Origin: Marinobacterium aestuarii
Lineage (GTDB): Bacteria > Pseudomonadota > Gammaproteobacteria > Pseudomonadales > Balneatricaceae
DNA length: 64,000 nt
Assembly: GCF_001651805.1 (NCBI RefSeq)
Contig: NZ_CP015839.1
Coordinates: 4,836,001 to 4,900,000, forward strand
Direction: 5' to 3'
Shown: positions 22,818 through 32,756 of the stretch, one piece after another
Position numbering within the stretch: position 1 is the stretch's first letter
How the letters are laid out: each line of letters starts with the position of its first letter
Program-made: the position numbers and the translations under genes
Notes under the pieces: generated by a model
Database searches by the model: none
What the model saw: only the letters and a program-made list of their open reading frames with translations
Told to the model about the DNA's origin: nothing

Positions 22818-23807
22818 GTGAATATCTTGAAGTCAGTGAACTCAAACTGGTTTATCCGGGCAAGGCTGAAGCAACGCCACCTGCTGGTGCTGGCCGCCCT
22901 GGGTGAGACCTGCAATCTGAACCACGCCGCGGAAGGGCTGAGCATCTCCCAACCGGCAATATCAAAACTGCTGAAGGAACTTGAAGACGCACTGGGAGTC
23001 CACCTGTTCGAGCGCCAAGCCCGTGGCGTTATCCCGACCGCCTACGGTGAAACGATGATTCGCCATGCCAATCACCTGCTCAGCACCCTTGACGGTGCCT
23101 ATGCTGAAATAAGTGCCATGCGTCATGGGCAGAGTGGCCGAGTCCGCTTGGGCACTATTCTCACACCCTGCGCAGATCTCCTGCCAGATACCCTCAATAA
23201 GGTTCGCCAGACCCACCCTGATCTGGAAATCAGCATCCAGACCGGCTCCAGCGAGCAACTACTTGAAGCACTGGATAACGGCGAGCTCGACATCCTGGTG
23301 GCACGTTATTTCGACAAGCACGACCGATATGGCTTTCAGTATGAGCCCATGTTCCAGGAACCCATTCATGTGTGCGCCCGTATCGACCATCCGCTTATCC
23401 GCGCGGGCAGAGCGCTGTCACCTGCCGACCTGCAGCATGAAGACTGGGTGCTGCCTCCCGATGGCAGCGTGATGCGCGCGGAGTTTGAAGCATTGTTTTA
23501 CCGTGCCGCAATGCTGCCGCCAACACGGGTAGTTACCGCCGAAAACCTGTTAATGGTCACCAACCTGCTGGAACAGAACAATATGCTCACACTGCTGCCC
23601 AAGGGCGTGGTGCAGCATTACATGCGCTACAACATGCTAACCCAGGTCACACTGACGCAAGGAGTGCAAAAAGCCCTGGACCGCAATCTGGCCCCTTACG
23701 GGCTGATCGTACGCGATGAGCACTTGCTCGCACCTGCGGCCAAAGCCGTTCTGGAAATTCTGCGACGGGCGGGAAACAACCCATATGAGGGCAAAGTTCG
23801 CGTTTAA
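22818..23807 (+). CDS. LysR-family regulator divergent from the TRAP operon
   Basis: The 329-residue protein has an N-terminal winged helix (RLKQRHLLVLAALGETCN then LSISQPAISKLLKELEDALG) of the GbpR-like LysR group and a periplasmic-binding-type effector domain. The start is uncertain: GTG at 22,818 or 22,836 places the helix at the normal distance, whereas TTG at 22,773 adds 15 residues. The 187-bp divergent region with the TRAP binding-protein gene suggests that it controls uptake in response to the transported acid or a product. Confidence 0.87.
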   Translation: MNILKSVNSNWFIRARLKQRHLLVLAALGETCNLNHAAEGLSISQPAISKLLKELEDALGVHLFERQARGVIPTAYGETMIRHANHLLSTLDGAYAEISAMRHGQSGRVRLGTILTPCADLLPDTLNKVRQTHPDLEISIQTGSSEQLLEALDNGELDILVARYFDKHDRYGFQYEPMFQEPIHVCARIDHPLIRAGRALSPADLQHEDWVLPPDGSVMRAEFEALFYRAAMLPPTRVVTAENLLMVTNLLEQNNMLTLLPKGVVQHYMRYNMLTQVTLTQGVQKALDRNLAPYGLIVRDEHLLAPAAKAVLEILRRAGNNPYEGKVRV

Positions 23808-23959
23808 ATACTGGCTGAGCCTAAGCCCGGGTACCGGTATTGACCTCTTCACCAAGAAGCTATTCAGGCACGAATCGGCTGCGCCGTGCGTACATCGATT
23901 AACTGGCCAATCGGCAGTGTCTGCAAAGTTAGCCGGCGGCGGTTGAAGTTGTTGCGCCA

Positions 23960-25774
23960 CTACAGCTTGCGCGGATTTTTGGGGTAGTACCTTTCGGGGA
24001 GACGTTCGATATGGGGGAAGAAGCGCGTGTCCTTGTAGGGCAGTTTCATAAAGCCTGAAACCCCCAACCCTTCGATTAGCGGCAAGCGCTGCAGGATGGC
24101 ATTCAGGCAACGGGCGAACTCCTGCTCCTGACGCGGGTCCAGCAAACGGTAATAACTGTGCACCTTCAGATGCGTTGGCAGGCTCTCGAAGATGATAAGA
24201 CCGGTGTGGTGAATCCTGTTGAGCTGCCAGAGGATGTCCATGATGTCCTGGGGCAATTCCAGGAATTCATCGGGGTCACGGCCATCCTCGAAGTACGAAT
24301 GCACCCGCGCCTGGTTTTCCAGATCCGGTGCCGCGCTGACCTCATAGGGCAAGGAAATTCCGGCGGGGGCAACGAAGGGCTCAGTCTCGCTGTCACGCTC
24401 AATATGCAGGGTGTCACGGGCATCGAACAGACAGCTTTTGAAGACACCCTGTCGGTAAATGGCCCGCGCCAGACTCACCATGTTATTGACCGAGGCAATA
24501 AAGGAGGCCCGCAGGCGTTCATCGTGCAGCGCCAGGCTGGAGTCGATATAGACGCCGTTCGCCTCCCAGCGCACCGCCAGGCCGCCCACAATCGGGTACT
24601 TGCCGAGCCGGCTGACCGCGGCCAGAAAGGCCTTTTCGGTCTCCCCCATCCCCTGCAGAAAGTTCTTGTAGTAGCGTTCCAGCGGCGCGTCATCCAGCGC
24701 ACTTAAAACATCGTGCGCACCCTCTTCACGCAGGAATGACTTGCGCGAGCTATAGACCACGGTATCAATATCGCGGTAGCGCGGGCTGACCCACACGGGC
24801 ACCTGGGGCACCGGCGCTGGCGTCGGCAGATCCTCCATCACAAGTCGGGCCATGCGGTGCATGTTCGCCAGAAAATAATCCCCGGCCCGGGCCCGCTCAA
24901 CCGGGTCCGGCGCCAGCATGGCTTCCAGCACCCTTGCAAACTCGATCGGCAAACCCAGTGAGGTGGGCGGAATGGCCTTGTAACCAAAACGGCAGGATTG
25001 CCCCGACGCCAGGGCATAGAGGGTGCCCGCCAGACCGTCTTCATCGAAACGGGGGGACGACAAGCCGCCGTTAAGCTGCGCCTCGCCGATAAAGTAGACA
25101 TCCCCCAGCCGGGCGTTGGTCTGCTGCATGTTATCCGACATCAGCTCCATCACATTGGCGGCCACAAACTGGTTGTTTGCATCCAGCTGGGCGAACACCG
25201 TTGAACCCCAGTCGATCAGGGCCGCGGTTTCGGTCTCGGCGTCAAAGACGATATTGGAGGGTTTGATATCGCCGTGCACAATGGGCTTGCCCGCGTGGCT
25301 GCGCAATGTACGCAGGATATCGGCCATTTGCGCCGCGATCCGCACCACCAGGCGCGGCGACAGCGGCCCCCACTCCAGCGATATTTTTTCCAGATCCCGC
25401 CCCGGCGCCCGCTCCATCGCCAGGATCGACTGGCCATGCACCGCTTGGAAGGCCAGCAGTTTGGGCACATGGGGGTGCTCCACCAGCCCCAGCATGAAAG
25501 CCTCTTCTTCCAGCCGGTCCTGCAGATGCTGCGGCAGCGTGATACGGGAAAACTTGAATACCGACGCCTCGCCCTGGCCAGAAACGCCGGCGAAGACAAA
25601 GCCGAAGGCCCCCTTGCCGATCAGCTCTATATCCCGATAGCCCAGCTGCTGCAGCTGCGCCTCGCACAGCCGGAACCAGTCCTTGAGTTTCTTGGCATCG
25701 TGGTGGCTGAGCAGGTAAATCGACTGCTCTTCCGGGATATAGAACTGTTGCAGGTAATCATTGGGCATAGGCAA
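23960..25774 (-). CDS. Hanks-type Ser/Thr protein kinase in the branched-chain 2-oxoacid dehydrogenase operon
   Basis: The 604-residue soluble protein has a complete kinase core: Gly-rich loop GKGAFGFVFAG at 53-63, ATP-binding Lys 74 in VFKF, catalytic HGDIKPSN at 167-174 (Asp 169, Lys 171, Asn 174) and metal-binding DWG at 188-190 in place of DFG. No membrane segment or sensor repeat is visible. Residues about 330-604 form a domain I do not recognise. It starts 54 bp after the E2 stop on the same strand, so it is probably cotranscribed. A role in phosphorylating the dehydrogenase is only inferred. An ATG two codons inside is an alternative start; neither has a good ribosome site. Confidence 0.88.
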   Translation of the reverse strand: MPMPNDYLQQFYIPEEQSIYLLSHHDAKKLKDWFRLCEAQLQQLGYRDIELIGKGAFGFVFAGVSGQGEASVFKFSRITLPQHLQDRLEEEAFMLGLVEHPHVPKLLAFQAVHGQSILAMERAPGRDLEKISLEWGPLSPRLVVRIAAQMADILRTLRSHAGKPIVHGDIKPSNIVFDAETETAALIDWGSTVFAQLDANNQFVAANVMELMSDNMQQTNARLGDVYFIGEAQLNGGLSSPRFDEDGLAGTLYALASGQSCRFGYKAIPPTSLGLPIEFARVLEAMLAPDPVERARAGDYFLANMHRMARLVMEDLPTPAPVPQVPVWVSPRYRDIDTVVYSSRKSFLREEGAHDVLSALDDAPLERYYKNFLQGMGETEKAFLAAVSRLGKYPIVGGLAVRWEANGVYIDSSLALHDERLRASFIASVNNMVSLARAIYRQGVFKSCLFDARDTLHIERDSETEPFVAPAGISLPYEVSAAPDLENQARVHSYFEDGRDPDEFLELPQDIMDILWQLNRIHHTGLIIFESLPTHLKVHSYYRLLDPRQEQEFARCLNAILQRLPLIEGLGVSGFMKLPYKDTRFFPHIERLPERYYPKNPRKL

Positions 25775-25828
25775 GTCGGCTCACGGATCCTCAAGATGTC
25801 TGCCCCTCAGGGCCAGGGGCTAGGGCAA

Positions 25829-27442
25829 CTATGCCAGCTCAAGCAGCATTGAGGCCGGATCCTCGAGGTAGGCTTTCCACAGGTTACTGAAGCGCGCCAT
25901 GGTCGCGCCGTCGAGCACTCTATGGTCGCCCGACCAGCTGATGTTCATGATGCTGCTGGCCACCACCTGGCCTGCTGCATCAAAGCGCGGCAGCGTCTGG
26001 GTTTTACCCAGCGCCACTATCGCCACTTCCGGCTTGTTGACCACCGGCACCATAAAGGTGCCCCCCAGAGCACCTATATTGGAGATGCTGATGGTGCCGC
26101 CCTGCAGGTCATCCTGGCGTAACTTGCCGGTGCGGGCGGCGTCGGTCAGGCGCTGCACCTCACGGGCGATATCAAGAATACTGAGGCGCTCCACCCCCTT
26201 GACGTTGGGCACCAGCAAGCCGATCTTTGAGTCCACCGCCATGCCGATATTGCAGCTCGGCAGATAGTGCAGCTCAGTGCAGTCGTCATTCACCCGCGCA
26301 TTAAGGATGGGAAAGGACTGCACCGCCAGCGCCATCGCCTTCATGATGAAGGGCATCAATGTCAGACGCACGCCCTGCTGTTCGGCCTTGAGCTTCAACT
26401 GGCCGCGCAGTTGCAGCAGCGCACTCATGTCCACTTCATCGCCGTAGGTGAAATGGGGAATACTGGATACCGCCTCCACCATGCGCTTGGCCATGGCTGC
26501 CTGGATACCGCGGATCGGCTCGATACGCACGCTCTTCTCTGTCGCTACAGCCGCAACAGAAGGCTCAGTGCTAACGGCTGCGGTGGCGGCACCTTTAGGA
26601 GCCTGCTCAAGGCTTGCGCGATAACGCTGCACATCCTCCTTCAGAATACGCCCATCCTTGCCACTGCCGGGAACCTGCGCAAGATCAAGGCCGTATTCGC
26701 GGGCCACGCGACGCACCGCAGGCCCTGCCAGTACCTTGCCACCAGGGCGGGAGGCGCTAGCCTGCGGAACAGCCGCCTGGCAGGCTGCGGCCGCAGGGGC
26801 CTTGATCGATGACGCGGGCTTTTTAGCTGGAGCAGCGACCGGAGCGGCGGCCGGTGCGGCTGTTGTAGTGCTGTGGGTATAGGACGGCATAATGGCGAAC
26901 AAAGGGGAGTGCATCTTGGCCATTTCGCCCTGGGCATAATACAGACGCGTCACCCGTCCGGCCCGGGGGGCCGGAATCTGTACCAGCGCCTTGTCCGTCA
27001 TGACATCGGCCACCGGCTGATCTTCCTCGATCAGGTCCCCCTCTTTCACCAGCCACTCCACCAGCTCACATTCAACAATGCCCTCCCCCAGGTCCGGCAG
27101 GATAAAGTCCTCTTCTTTCGCTTCGGCGGCGGCCTGCGCTGCCGGTTGCTCCGCAGCCGCCGGCGCTTGCACCACAGGGGGTTGCGTAATCGGCGCTTGC
27201 TCCTCGGCCAGCTCAACGGCAAACAGGGGCGAGTGAATCCTGGCAATATCGCCCTGCTGATAGAACAAACGCACTACCCGGCCATGAAAGGGTGAGGGTA
27301 TCTGTACCAGCGCCTTGTCGGTCATGACATCGGCCACCGGTTGATCTTCCTCGATCAGGTCGCCTTCCTGGATAAGCCACTCAACCAGCTCGCACTCCAC
27401 GATGCCTTCACCGATATCGGGCAGAATAAAATCTTTGATCAT
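25829..27442 (-). CDS. bkdB: 2-oxoacid dehydrogenase E2 with two lipoyl domains, branched-chain type
   Basis: This dihydrolipoyl acyltransferase core transfers acyl groups to CoA. It has two near-identical lipoyl domains, residues 1-80 and about 115-195, each with the modified Lys in MTDKALVQIP. Ala/Pro-rich linkers, a peripheral subunit-binding domain (AGPAVRRVAREYGLDLAQV, about 245-280) and a catalytic domain with the active-site SGDHRVLDGATMARF follow. Length is 537 residues. Many branched-chain E2 proteins have one lipoyl domain. The ATG at 27,442 has GGAG upstream. No E3 gene follows; a kinase gene does. Confidence 0.9.
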   Translation of the reverse strand: MIKDFILPDIGEGIVECELVEWLIQEGDLIEEDQPVADVMTDKALVQIPSPFHGRVVRLFYQQGDIARIHSPLFAVELAEEQAPITQPPVVQAPAAAEQPAAQAAAEAKEEDFILPDLGEGIVECELVEWLVKEGDLIEEDQPVADVMTDKALVQIPAPRAGRVTRLYYAQGEMAKMHSPLFAIMPSYTHSTTTAAPAAAPVAAPAKKPASSIKAPAAAACQAAVPQASASRPGGKVLAGPAVRRVAREYGLDLAQVPGSGKDGRILKEDVQRYRASLEQAPKGAATAAVSTEPSVAAVATEKSVRIEPIRGIQAAMAKRMVEAVSSIPHFTYGDEVDMSALLQLRGQLKLKAEQQGVRLTLMPFIMKAMALAVQSFPILNARVNDDCTELHYLPSCNIGMAVDSKIGLLVPNVKGVERLSILDIAREVQRLTDAARTGKLRQDDLQGGTISISNIGALGGTFMVPVVNKPEVAIVALGKTQTLPRFDAAGQVVASSIMNISWSGDHRVLDGATMARFSNLWKAYLEDPASMLLELA

Positions 27443-27453
27443 GGAAGACTCCA

Positions 27454-28431
27454 CTAAAAGTTAACGCTGTGCCTGATCGCTTCGAAGAGCTTCAGATGAT
27501 CCGGCAGGTATTCCTTTTCCAGCACCAGCGGGAAAGGCGTATCCAGGCCGGTAACCCGGCTAATGGGCGACTCCAGATAGAGGAAGCATCGCTCCTGAAT
27601 AGTGGCGGCAATCTCCCCGGCAAAGCCTCCCGTCAGCGGCGCTTCGTGACTGATCAGCAGACGGCCGGTTTTCATGACCGACGCAGCCACAGTGTCGGCA
27701 TCCCAGGGCAGAACGCTGCGCAGGTCTATGACCTCGCAGGAAATGCCCTCTTTCTCTGCCAGCTCCGCGGCCTTTTCAATCTGCTCCATCTGAGCCCCCC
27801 AGGCCAGCAGCGTGATGTCCGTGCCTTCTTTCAGTACTTCCGCCTGCCCCAGAGGCAGTTCGTAATCCTCTTCCGGCACCTCGCCCACCGAGGCGCGGTA
27901 GATCCGCTTGGGCTCGAAGAACAACACCGGGTTTGGATCACGGATCGAGGCCAGCAGCAGCCCCTTGGCCTGATGCGGGTTGCGCGGCACTACGATCTTG
28001 AGGCCCGGCGTATGGGCAAAATAGGCTTCAGGCGACTGGGAATGGTAGAGCCCGCCGGCGATGCCGCCGCCGTAGGGCGTACGTATCGTCAGCCCACCGA
28101 CATCGAACAGGTTGCCGGAGCGGTAGCGAAACTTGGCGGCTTCGTTCACGATCTGATCGAAGGCAGGAAATATATAATCGGCAAACTGGATCTCGGCCAC
28201 CGGCACCGATCCCTGGGCCGCCAGGCCGTTGGCAAAGCCGATGATCCCCTGCTCCACCAGGGGTGTATTGAAGCAGCGGGCCCGGCCATATTTCTCCTGC
28301 AAATGGCTGGTGGCGCGGAAAACACCGCCGAATACGCCGACATCCTCGCCAAAACAGATGACTTTGTCGTTGCTCGCCATGGCGATATCCAGGGCGTTAT
28401 TGATCGCCTGCAACAGGTTCATCTCAGCCAT
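27454..28431 (-). CDS. bkdA2: 2-oxoisovalerate dehydrogenase E1 beta subunit
   Basis: With E1 alpha this subunit forms the thiamine-dependent decarboxylase of the branched-chain complex. The 325-residue protein carries [18 protein letters not shown], the block [15 protein letters not shown] and [21 protein letters not shown], typical of BCKDH rather than pyruvate dehydrogenase. Its ATG at 28,431 overlaps the E1 alpha stop by 8 bp, indicating translational coupling. The in-frame region upstream of 28,431 lies inside E1 alpha and is not used. Confidence 0.92.
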
Positions 28432-29608
28432 GATCAATTCCTCCGGCGCTCTTGGGATAAGCCGCGGGGTATTTGCGGATGTGGGCCTTGAGATTTTCCA
28501 GTTGCTGCCTGAGCAGCGCCGGCGGCTCATCATAGACGTCGGTGATCAAATCCTCGAGCTTCGCCGGTGGCCGCTGCTGTGCGAGTTTCATTGCTGCCAG
28601 CACCTGTTGACGCAGCTCTTCGAGCAGCTGTTTCTCCTGGGCTTCATCCCACCAGTTCTGGGCCAGTAGCCAGTTTTTCATGCGCAGTATCGGGTCCTTG
28701 GCACGCCATTTATCCTCTTCTGCCTTGTTGCGATAGCCGGAGGGATCATCCGAGGAGGAGTGAGCCGCCAGACGGTAGCTCATCGCCTCGACCAGTACCG
28801 GCTCATTCTGTTCCACGGCCAGCTTGCGCGCCTCCTGCATCGCCTTGCAGACTGCCAGCACATCGTTGCCATCCACCCGAATGGACTGCATGCCGTAACC
28901 GACCGCACGTGGCGCTATGCCGTCACCGGCAAACTGTTCGCTGGACGGCGTCGAGATGGCATAGCCGTTGTTGCGGCACAGGAAAATCACCGGCACCTTG
29001 AGCACCGCCGCCATATTCAGGGCCGCATGAAAGTCACCCTCGGACGCGGCACCCTCGCCGAATACTGTAACAGTGCAGCGCTGCTGGCCGGCCAGCTTCT
29101 GGCCGTAGGCGTAGCCGGTCGCCTGGGGAATCTGCGTCGCCAGCGGAGACGAAATGGTCATGTAATGCAGCTCGCGGGAGCCGTAATGGATCGGCATCTG
29201 CCGACCCTTGCCGTAGTCCTGATCATTGCCGAACAGTTGGTTCATGAACTCCTCAATCGAGAAGCCTCTATAGGCCAGCGCGCCCTGTTCGCGGTACTGC
29301 GCCATGATCATGTCGGCATCATCCAGCGCCGCGGCAAACCCGACCGTGGTGGCCTCTTCACCGGTGGATTGCAGATAAAAACTCAACCGCCCCTGGCGCT
29401 GGGCCGCCAGCATGCGTTCATCCAGCACGCGGGTAAATACCATGGCGCGGTAAATCTTCAGGGCCTGGGCCTCGTCCAGATCCGGCACCACGGCACCGGG
29501 AATGATCGAACCATCCTGCTGCAATACCCGATAAATCGGGATCTGCAAGGCATTGCCCGGGGTAAACTCAGGCGCATGAATCACCCGTTCTTGATTATCC
29601 ATAGACAT
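28424..29608 (-). CDS. bkdA1: 2-oxoisovalerate dehydrogenase E1 alpha subunit
   Basis: The 394-residue protein binds thiamine diphosphate through [18 protein letters not shown] and RNNGYAIS. It keeps the loop [16 protein letters not shown], the counterpart of the mitochondrial E1 alpha loop around YRIGHHSTSDDSSAYR whose first Ser is phosphorylated by BCKDH kinase. The [17 protein letters not shown] region after it also matches the mitochondrial protein. Starts at 29,611, 29,608 and 29,602 are possible; 29,608 has GGGA five bases upstream. It heads the operon E1 alpha - E1 beta - E2 - kinase and is divergent from uvrA across 298 bp. Confidence 0.92.
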
Positions 29609-29906
29609 CATAATCCCGTTTATTTTGATGTATTGACGCCGCTGTCGCTCCTGATTCTCTGACCGCGCCCGGTTACTGGCCCTTGCCCGCAGGGCCAAAA
29701 ATGCAACGCCAGCCAGCACAGGCCCACGACTATTGAGCATAGCTGCTATCAGCAATGGCATTTAATCGGCCAGAGAACTAAGGCTAAAAATACAGAGCTG
29801 CCAAAGAACGCCGGGGCGGCTAAACGAATTCAAACGCAGCACCGGTGTTGGCCCGGCGGCGAACGCTATATAATCAACGGCTTTGGTCTCTTCGTCGGGA
29901 AGGTAT

Positions 29907-32756
<2,850 letters not shown>

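Follow-up and report, generated by a model that had tools for sequence, protein, structure and literature searches.

A Hanks-type kinase encoded with a mitochondrial-type branched-chain 2-oxoacid dehydrogenase in Marinobacterium aestuarii as candidate regulator of the complex

Introduction

Bacterial branched-chain 2-oxoacid dehydrogenase (BCKDH) complexes, which serve the breakdown of leucine, isoleucine and valine, are usually regarded as controlled at the level of transcription, and the kinase of the mitochondrial complex, BCKDK, is an enzyme of the GHKL fold. In Marinobacterium aestuarii the genes for E1-alpha, E1-beta and E2 of such a complex are followed on the same strand by a gene for a Hanks-type Ser/Thr kinase, which raises the question whether a bacterial BCKDH might be controlled by phosphorylation too, through a kinase of another fold. 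We analysed this operon within a window of 64,000 nucleotides (contig NZ_CP015839.1, positions 4,836,001 to 4,900,000; the host genome of 5.19 Mb consists of one contig), for which a first-pass annotation had proposed control of BCKDH by the kinase as a convergent solution. On balance, we favour the explanation that the kinase is dedicated to regulating the adjoining mitochondrial-type BCKDH complex. That this complex is its physiological target we consider quite probable, and for the E1-alpha loop as the site of phosphorylation we would give slightly less than an even chance. The argument starts from the genes, their catalytic residues, co-occurrence, linkage and pattern of conservation, all of which are read directly from the sequences.

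Co-occurrence and linkage of the kinase and E1-alpha

Orthologues of the kinase and of the window's E1-alpha were sought in three overlapping draws of genomes, from the order (293 genomes), the class (350) and the phylum (329). In the order draw the kinase and the mitochondrial-type E1-alpha each occur in 36 genomes; the two coincide in 35, one genome has only the kinase, one only E1-alpha, and 256 have neither. The lists of genomes were identical for the two genes in the class draw (4 with both, 346 with neither) and in the phylum draw (20 with both, 309 with neither), so that neither draw held a genome with one gene alone. Counting each genome once, 48 genomes from 11 families have both genes (35 from the order draw, 3 from the class draw and 10 from the phylum draw, these 10 having also been searched separately), one has the kinase only and one E1-alpha only. 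The bacteria that carry the kinase are for the most part marine. Scores were sharply split for both proteins, with kinase orthologues in the order draw at 533 bits or more and the next matches at 53.5 bits or less, and E1-alpha matches across the surveyed genomes either at least 497 bits or at most 254. Of the 12 genomes of the window's own family, 4 have both genes and 8 have neither, and a single genus of this family (g3) contains two genomes with both and one with neither. Distant E1-alpha complexes, including the Pseudomonas type, possess a related E1-alpha with a similar loop region, but this E1-alpha reaches no more than 35-43% identity (205-254 bits), and the genomes that have solely this type (14 of the order draw and 21 of the class draw) lack a kinase orthologue; one genome (G180) has both E1-alpha types together with the kinase.

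In a further collection, made up of the genomes of 26 relatives of the kinase (L048 is absent from this E1-alpha search), E1-alpha was found in 21. The five others are strain HTCC2207 (L062), which also lacks a close E1-beta and is discussed below, the genome of L052, where E1-beta and the end of an E1-alpha gene lie at a contig edge, and three fragmented assemblies (L054, L057, L058), in two of which E2 adjoins the kinase. In a 7.6-Mb bin labelled SAR324 (L061) there is part of a kinase together with an E1-alpha of 64% identity, either through transfer or through contamination of the bin.

The kinase gene lies directly in the bkd cluster in 33 of the 48 genomes with both genes. In 32 of these its match begins 2.2-2.95 kb after that of E1-alpha on the same strand, a distance that gives room for E1-beta and E2, and G281 was counted as the 33rd because E2 adjoins the kinase at a contig end (L156). 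Six more genomes have the kinase 3.5-5.0 kb from E1-alpha; the two of them that were inspected (G456 and G864) have one gene between E2 and the kinase, and in Alteromonas (L045) the gene at this place is rlmJ-like. An E2-to-kinase distance of 1298 nt in L032 and L162 was discarded as spurious, the alignment behind it continuing through a stop; in L032, E2 reaches position 1432 and the kinase starts near 1471-1501. The remaining nine of the 48, belonging to families f6, f185 and f232, have the two genes unlinked, 49 kb to 2 Mb apart in five genomes (G162, G284, G846, G869, G941) and on separate contigs in four (G184, G205, G265, G916). Likewise, both genes occur in three Marinospirillum genomes and in those of L046 and L047, where the 17-18 kb around the kinase contain no bkd gene. 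The pairing of kinase and E1-alpha therefore outlives the loss of linkage in several lineages. In G205 (L155:713-8886) the detached kinase is found some 1 kb past an operon for an ABC transporter of the branched-chain amino acid type, from which one gene in opposite orientation separates it.

The first-pass annotation had named a kinase usually unlinked to bkd genes as the finding that would speak against it, and the survey gave the reverse. Because of this outcome, and because unlinked kinases still co-occur with E1-alpha, a functional link between a dedicated Hanks-type kinase and BCKDH is well supported by the genomic evidence.

E1-alpha type and the phosphosite loop

The E1-alpha gene (28424..29611, minus strand; 395 aa from the ATG at 29611; Pfam E1_dh, 325 bits) has its best match in the PDB with human BCKDH E1-alpha (427 bits), followed at a distance by a 2-oxoisovalerate dehydrogenase of the P. 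putida type (225 bits) and human pyruvate dehydrogenase (PDH) E1-alpha (137 bits). By these comparisons the window's E1-alpha is of the mitochondrial type, human BCKDHA resembling it more closely than Pseudomonas BkdA1 or PDH E1-alpha do. In the phylum draw of 329 genomes this type (E <= 1e-90) was confined to the window's own class, the number of alphaproteobacteria drawn being not known; this restriction bears on the origin of the mitochondrial copy.

The serine loop of the window's E1-alpha (28727..28765) aligns with the human loop HHSTSDDSSAYR, which places the first phosphosite at Ser285 (codon 28757-28759) and the second at Asn295 (codon 28727-28729; numbering of the 395-aa form). Both the alignment and the Asn had been reported in the first-pass annotation and stand, the Asn as a local exception rather than as the general state. 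We counted residues at the two sites in 66 non-redundant mitochondrial-type E1-alpha sequences (that of G141 included) and in 27 non-redundant distant E1 matches, the latter a mixed set in which one sequence (L173) is a true relative cut off at a contig edge and others, among them L179 and L182, align poorly. At site 2, 55 of the 66 have Ser and 4 have Thr (Ser or Thr in 59), 5 have Asn, 1 has Ala and 1 has Gly; among the 27 the residue is Pro in 14, Ser in 4 and Thr in none. Besides the window, the Asn is carried by its two close relatives within Marinobacterium and by two further genomes (L084, L085). Site 1 is Ser in all 66 mitochondrial-type sequences.

Points against a dedicated regulator and alternative explanations

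Several observations weigh against the favoured explanation, beginning with the loop itself. The site-1 serine is not diagnostic: Ser or Thr also stands there in 22 of the 27 distant E1 sequences, and because this residue is usual in E1 enzymes of genomes without the kinase, it says little as evidence; the serine loop is kept with or without the kinase, and we have set it aside as support for targeting. Site 2 of the window's own E1-alpha is Asn, so that, if the kinase uses the loop, this species would have to rely on site 1 or on another residue. Strain HTCC2207 (G202; L062/L151; a draft assembly of 6 contigs) has the kinase, no mitochondrial-type E1-alpha and an E1-beta of just 43% identity, a constellation that fits either a recent loss of the partner together with the docking element proposed below or a second function or other target of the kinase. 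Its kinase is 89% identical to that of MOLA455 (496 of 556 residues) and keeps 105 of 106 invariant positions outside the N-terminal block, most of which it lacks. Conversely, G141 (L184) encodes E1-alpha, E1-beta and E2 and gave no kinase match; its assembly comprises about 280 contigs and is listed as 97% complete. The co-occurrence in 48 genomes is stated without a p-value, the genomes being related and the counts not phylogenetically independent. The distance matrices of kinase and E1-alpha do speak for the pairing, since they correlate with r = 0.80 (n = 45 genomes; reached by 0 of 2000 permutations), as expected of co-inherited genes, but shared descent also contributes to this value. 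The matrices comprise 39 of the 48 genomes and 6 of the further collection; G082, G121, G134, G159, G180, G205, G222, G262 and G281 were left out under these handles, and G306, one of the 6, agrees with G262 in its match coordinates and seems to be the same genome. No PP2C match lies at the operon locus, the three PP2C_2 matches of the genome being elsewhere, and an adjacent phosphatase was set aside on this ground. Finally, no phosphorylation data were found for these species.

G141 also provides two small hints. In its cluster E1-alpha, E1-beta and E2 stand in a row with a gene of the Glu/Leu/Phe/Val-dehydrogenase type downstream, and an Lrp-type regulator lies upstream, a hint from this one relative that the complex may act on branched-chain oxoacids. 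Its E1-alpha is the sole one of the 66 with Gly at site 2, and the coincidence with the missing kinase is a single case that hints at a connection between the two.

The alternative that survives best, although we hold it to be rather unlikely, is that the kinase serves branched-chain catabolism through E2, E1-beta or an adaptor or regulator and not through the E1-alpha loop. It would explain that the serine loop is indifferent to the presence of the kinase and that the window carries Asn at site 2, and it has parallels in PknG, which controls 2-oxoglutarate dehydrogenase through OdhI (PMC8546545), and in Mycoplasma, where E1-alpha and E1-beta of PDH are both phosphoproteins (PMC1947986). Against it, no small gene of the FHA type was noticed in the inspected clusters, judged by eye without a profile search, and site 2 holds Ser or Thr more often in mitochondrial-type sequences (59 of 66) than in distant ones (4 of 27); common ancestry could explain this difference as well.

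A general Hanks kinase, with a gene that is simply carried along with the bkd operon, is a reading that we regard as improbable. Neighbours in an operon are often co-inherited, and HTCC2207 keeps the kinase without E1-alpha; but nine of the 48 genomes maintain both genes apart, as do the three Marinospirillum and two other genomes, and an orthologue without mitochondrial-type E1-alpha is absent from the 350 class and 329 phylum genomes and occurs once, in HTCC2207, among the 293 of the order.

The kinase and its domains

The kinase gene occupies 23960..25774 on the minus strand and encodes 602 aa from the ATG at 25768 or 604 aa from a TTG at 25774. The protein matches Pfam Pkinase with 61.6 bits against a cut-off of 31.7, and all 25 aligned orthologues keep its catalytic residues K74, E91, D169, N174 and D188 (604-aa numbering), in agreement with the first-pass annotation, which had called it a soluble Hanks-type kinase with all catalytic residues; its solubility was judged by eye only. 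Orthologues are 52-97% identical and nearly all full length, the nearest named relatives being those of Marinobacterium (96-97%). The catalytic domain (24839..25642, about residues 43-310) was delimited by Pfam, motif alignment and Foldseek. Its catalytic loop, HGDIKPSN, is identical in all 59 sequences of a larger alignment, some of them near-identical to each other, from which L004 (a duplicate of the window) and L061 (partial) were excluded. The motifs HGD and DWG stand in place of HRD and DFG, and since HGD is without the Arg of RD kinases, it suggests that the kinase would probably be active without phosphorylation of its activation loop. The predicted model (pLDDT 79, pTM 0.83, from an alignment of 25 sequences) has the PknA kinase domain as its best Foldseek match (E 3.5e-12), with kinase structures alone among the best 50 matches, and the best PDB match by sequence is StkP. 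That the protein instead phosphorylates a small molecule of the pathway, as a kinase of the aminoglycoside-phosphotransferase type, is very improbable: Pfam APH does match, with 42.7 bits against a cut-off of 23.2, but Pkinase scores higher, HGDIKPSN with the Lys of protein kinases is identical in 59 of 59 sequences, and the best PDB matches by sequence and by fold are protein kinases.

The most conserved segment of the kinase is a block at its N-terminus (25643..25750, residues 7-42 of the 602-aa form), which begins QQFYIxEEQSIYLL. Its mean entropy is 0.87 bits (0.68 for residues 7-30), compared with 1.13 and 1.14 bits for the two lobes of the kinase domain and 1.20 and 1.31 for the two halves of the C-terminal domain, and, HTCC2207 aside, all 58 sequences share its Phe-Tyr-Ile, second Glu, Gln-Ser, Tyr-Leu, Trp and Cys. 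The first half of the block falls within residues 1-23 of the 604-aa form, which are modelled with a pLDDT below 50, a value that a thin alignment can also produce; the second half is predicted as a helix. A segment that is strongly conserved but has no predicted structure of its own is typically a binding element, and the block is probably a docking element, for which it is a better candidate than the C-terminal domain, where the first-pass annotation had suggested binding of E2 or a ligand. PknG is likewise described as using a flexible N-terminal stretch to dock its substrate (PMC8546545).

The C-terminal part, which the first-pass annotation could relate to nothing known, found no relatives here either: it gave no Pfam match up to E = 10, in a search where the HMMER filters drop most weak hits, and the domain alone (23963..24640, residues 377-602) gave no fold match in the PDB with E <= 0.001 (best E 0.019, probability 0.08). 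Its predicted secondary structure is that of an alpha/beta domain with two alpha-beta-beta-alpha-beta-beta units. An alignment of the two halves extends through 79 columns without a gap, with an hhalign E-value of 0.0042 and a probability of just 8%, so that the domain may possibly consist of two copies of this unit, with weak indications of an internal duplication.

Proposed mechanism and comparison with known systems

What we infer from sequence about catalytic activity, target, site, effect, docking and sensing combines into the following scheme. The N-terminal block would dock on the BCKDH complex, and the Hanks domain would phosphorylate E1-alpha, most likely in its HS[ST]SDDP[ST]GYR[S/T] loop, which serves the lipoyl domain. 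The phosphate would block the work of E1-alpha with the lipoyl domain of E2 and shut the complex, and the loss of branched-chain oxoacids would thereby be halted under scarcity. The C-terminal domain would be the likely sensor of a metabolite, and a phosphatase encoded elsewhere would reverse the phosphorylation. Two other Hanks kinases of the host genome (G000:C1:1972114-1973616 and 4488889-4490346; L001/L193 and L002/L194) seem to be fused to PP2C domains, their kinase and PP2C_2 matches adjoining on one strand and having equal reported open-frame lengths (582 aa in one case, 581 aa in the other); a further PP2C stands by itself at 1508618.

In its fullest form, the proposal is that a gammaproteobacterial Hanks-fold kinase phosphorylates the same E1-alpha serine loop as the GHKL kinase of mitochondria, by convergence, with a new docking element and a sensor that maybe binds branched-chain oxoacids; this we put forward tentatively, somewhat short of even odds. 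The convergence would be one of function and not of family membership, because the mitochondrial kinase has another fold and the PDK/BCKDK domain is absent here. Of the convergent control proposed in the first-pass annotation, the functional link is borne out by the survey, and the argument from the loop serine is set aside, Ser or Thr being usual there in distant E1 enzymes.

The mitochondrial BCKDH complex is under the control of a kinase and a phosphatase (PMC11021975). The bacterial kinase would resemble BCKDK in acting on the same type of complex, with an E1-alpha close to human BCKDHA, and differs from it in its Hanks fold, its N-terminal block and its unmatched C-terminal domain; Pfam searches of the protein gave no BCDHK_Adom3, HATPase, PASTA, TPR or rubredoxin match. 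A BCKDK-like GHKL kinase elsewhere in the genome was also considered and set aside, a search of the genome with PF10436 being empty (it was run without a positive control). Actinobacterial PknG is a Hanks-type kinase that controls a 2-oxoacid dehydrogenase and whose activation loop is open without phosphorylation (PMC8546545). It shares with the window kinase the Hanks-type domain, the link to such a dehydrogenase and an N-terminal region, here the candidate for docking, but PknG acts via an FHA protein (OdhI/GarA) and carries a TPR domain, whereas the window kinase is without TPR or rubredoxin matches and is paired with BCKDH, not with 2-oxoglutarate dehydrogenase. The E1-alpha of Mycoplasma PDH was found to be phosphorylated, and altered in a mutant of a Ser/Thr phosphatase (PMC1947986, PMC3639085); this case concerns PDH and not BCKDH, and no dedicated paired kinase is named in the available excerpts of these papers. 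The membrane Hanks kinases PknA, PknB and StkP are similar in the catalytic domain, StkP being the best match by sequence and PknA by fold, and they differ from the window kinase, which has no PASTA match, HGD and DWG instead of HRD and DFG, and an unmatched C-terminal fold. Hanks-type control of 2-oxoglutarate dehydrogenase and phosphorylated PDH E1-alpha in bacteria are thus known already, and both narrow the novelty of our claim. No bacterial BCKDH kinase appeared among the literature matches listed, a weak absence since these are open-licence PMC papers.

Operon structure and genomic context

The genes, order, strand and spacing of the operon are as described in the first-pass annotation: on the minus strand, the open reading frames for E1-alpha, E1-beta, E2 and the Hanks-type kinase follow each other. 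E1-beta (27454..28431; 325 aa; Pfam Transket_pyr and Transketolase_C) overlaps the E1-alpha gene by 8 nt. The E2 acyltransferase (25829..27454; up to 541 aa) has a Pfam 2-oxoacid_dh domain, an E3-binding domain and two lipoyl domains; the latter are about 80% identical to each other, which suggests a recent duplication or gene conversion. The gap between E2 and the kinase, reported as 54 nt, presupposes the TTG start at 25774 and measures 60 nt with the ATG at 25768. Within this spacer (25802-25820) lies an inverted repeat with 6-base arms, a 7-base loop and no T tract, possibly a processing or attenuation hairpin unless it is due to chance. A consensus scan found no promoter-like site in 23500-30000 (mean of 2.7 in shuffled sequences), and the interval from E2 to the kinase gave no terminator-like site; these results add little. 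Upstream, the operon is flanked by a divergent uvrA-like gene (judged by eye) and downstream by a convergent gene of the LysR type.

Implications

If the proposed regulation is true, reversible covalent control of BCKDH would exist outside mitochondria and would be exerted by a kinase of an unrelated fold. It would also provide a clear kinase-substrate pair in bacteria, where the substrates of Hanks kinases are hard to assign. The family of unmatched C-terminal domains could then be studied as a possible sensor of branched-chain oxoacids.

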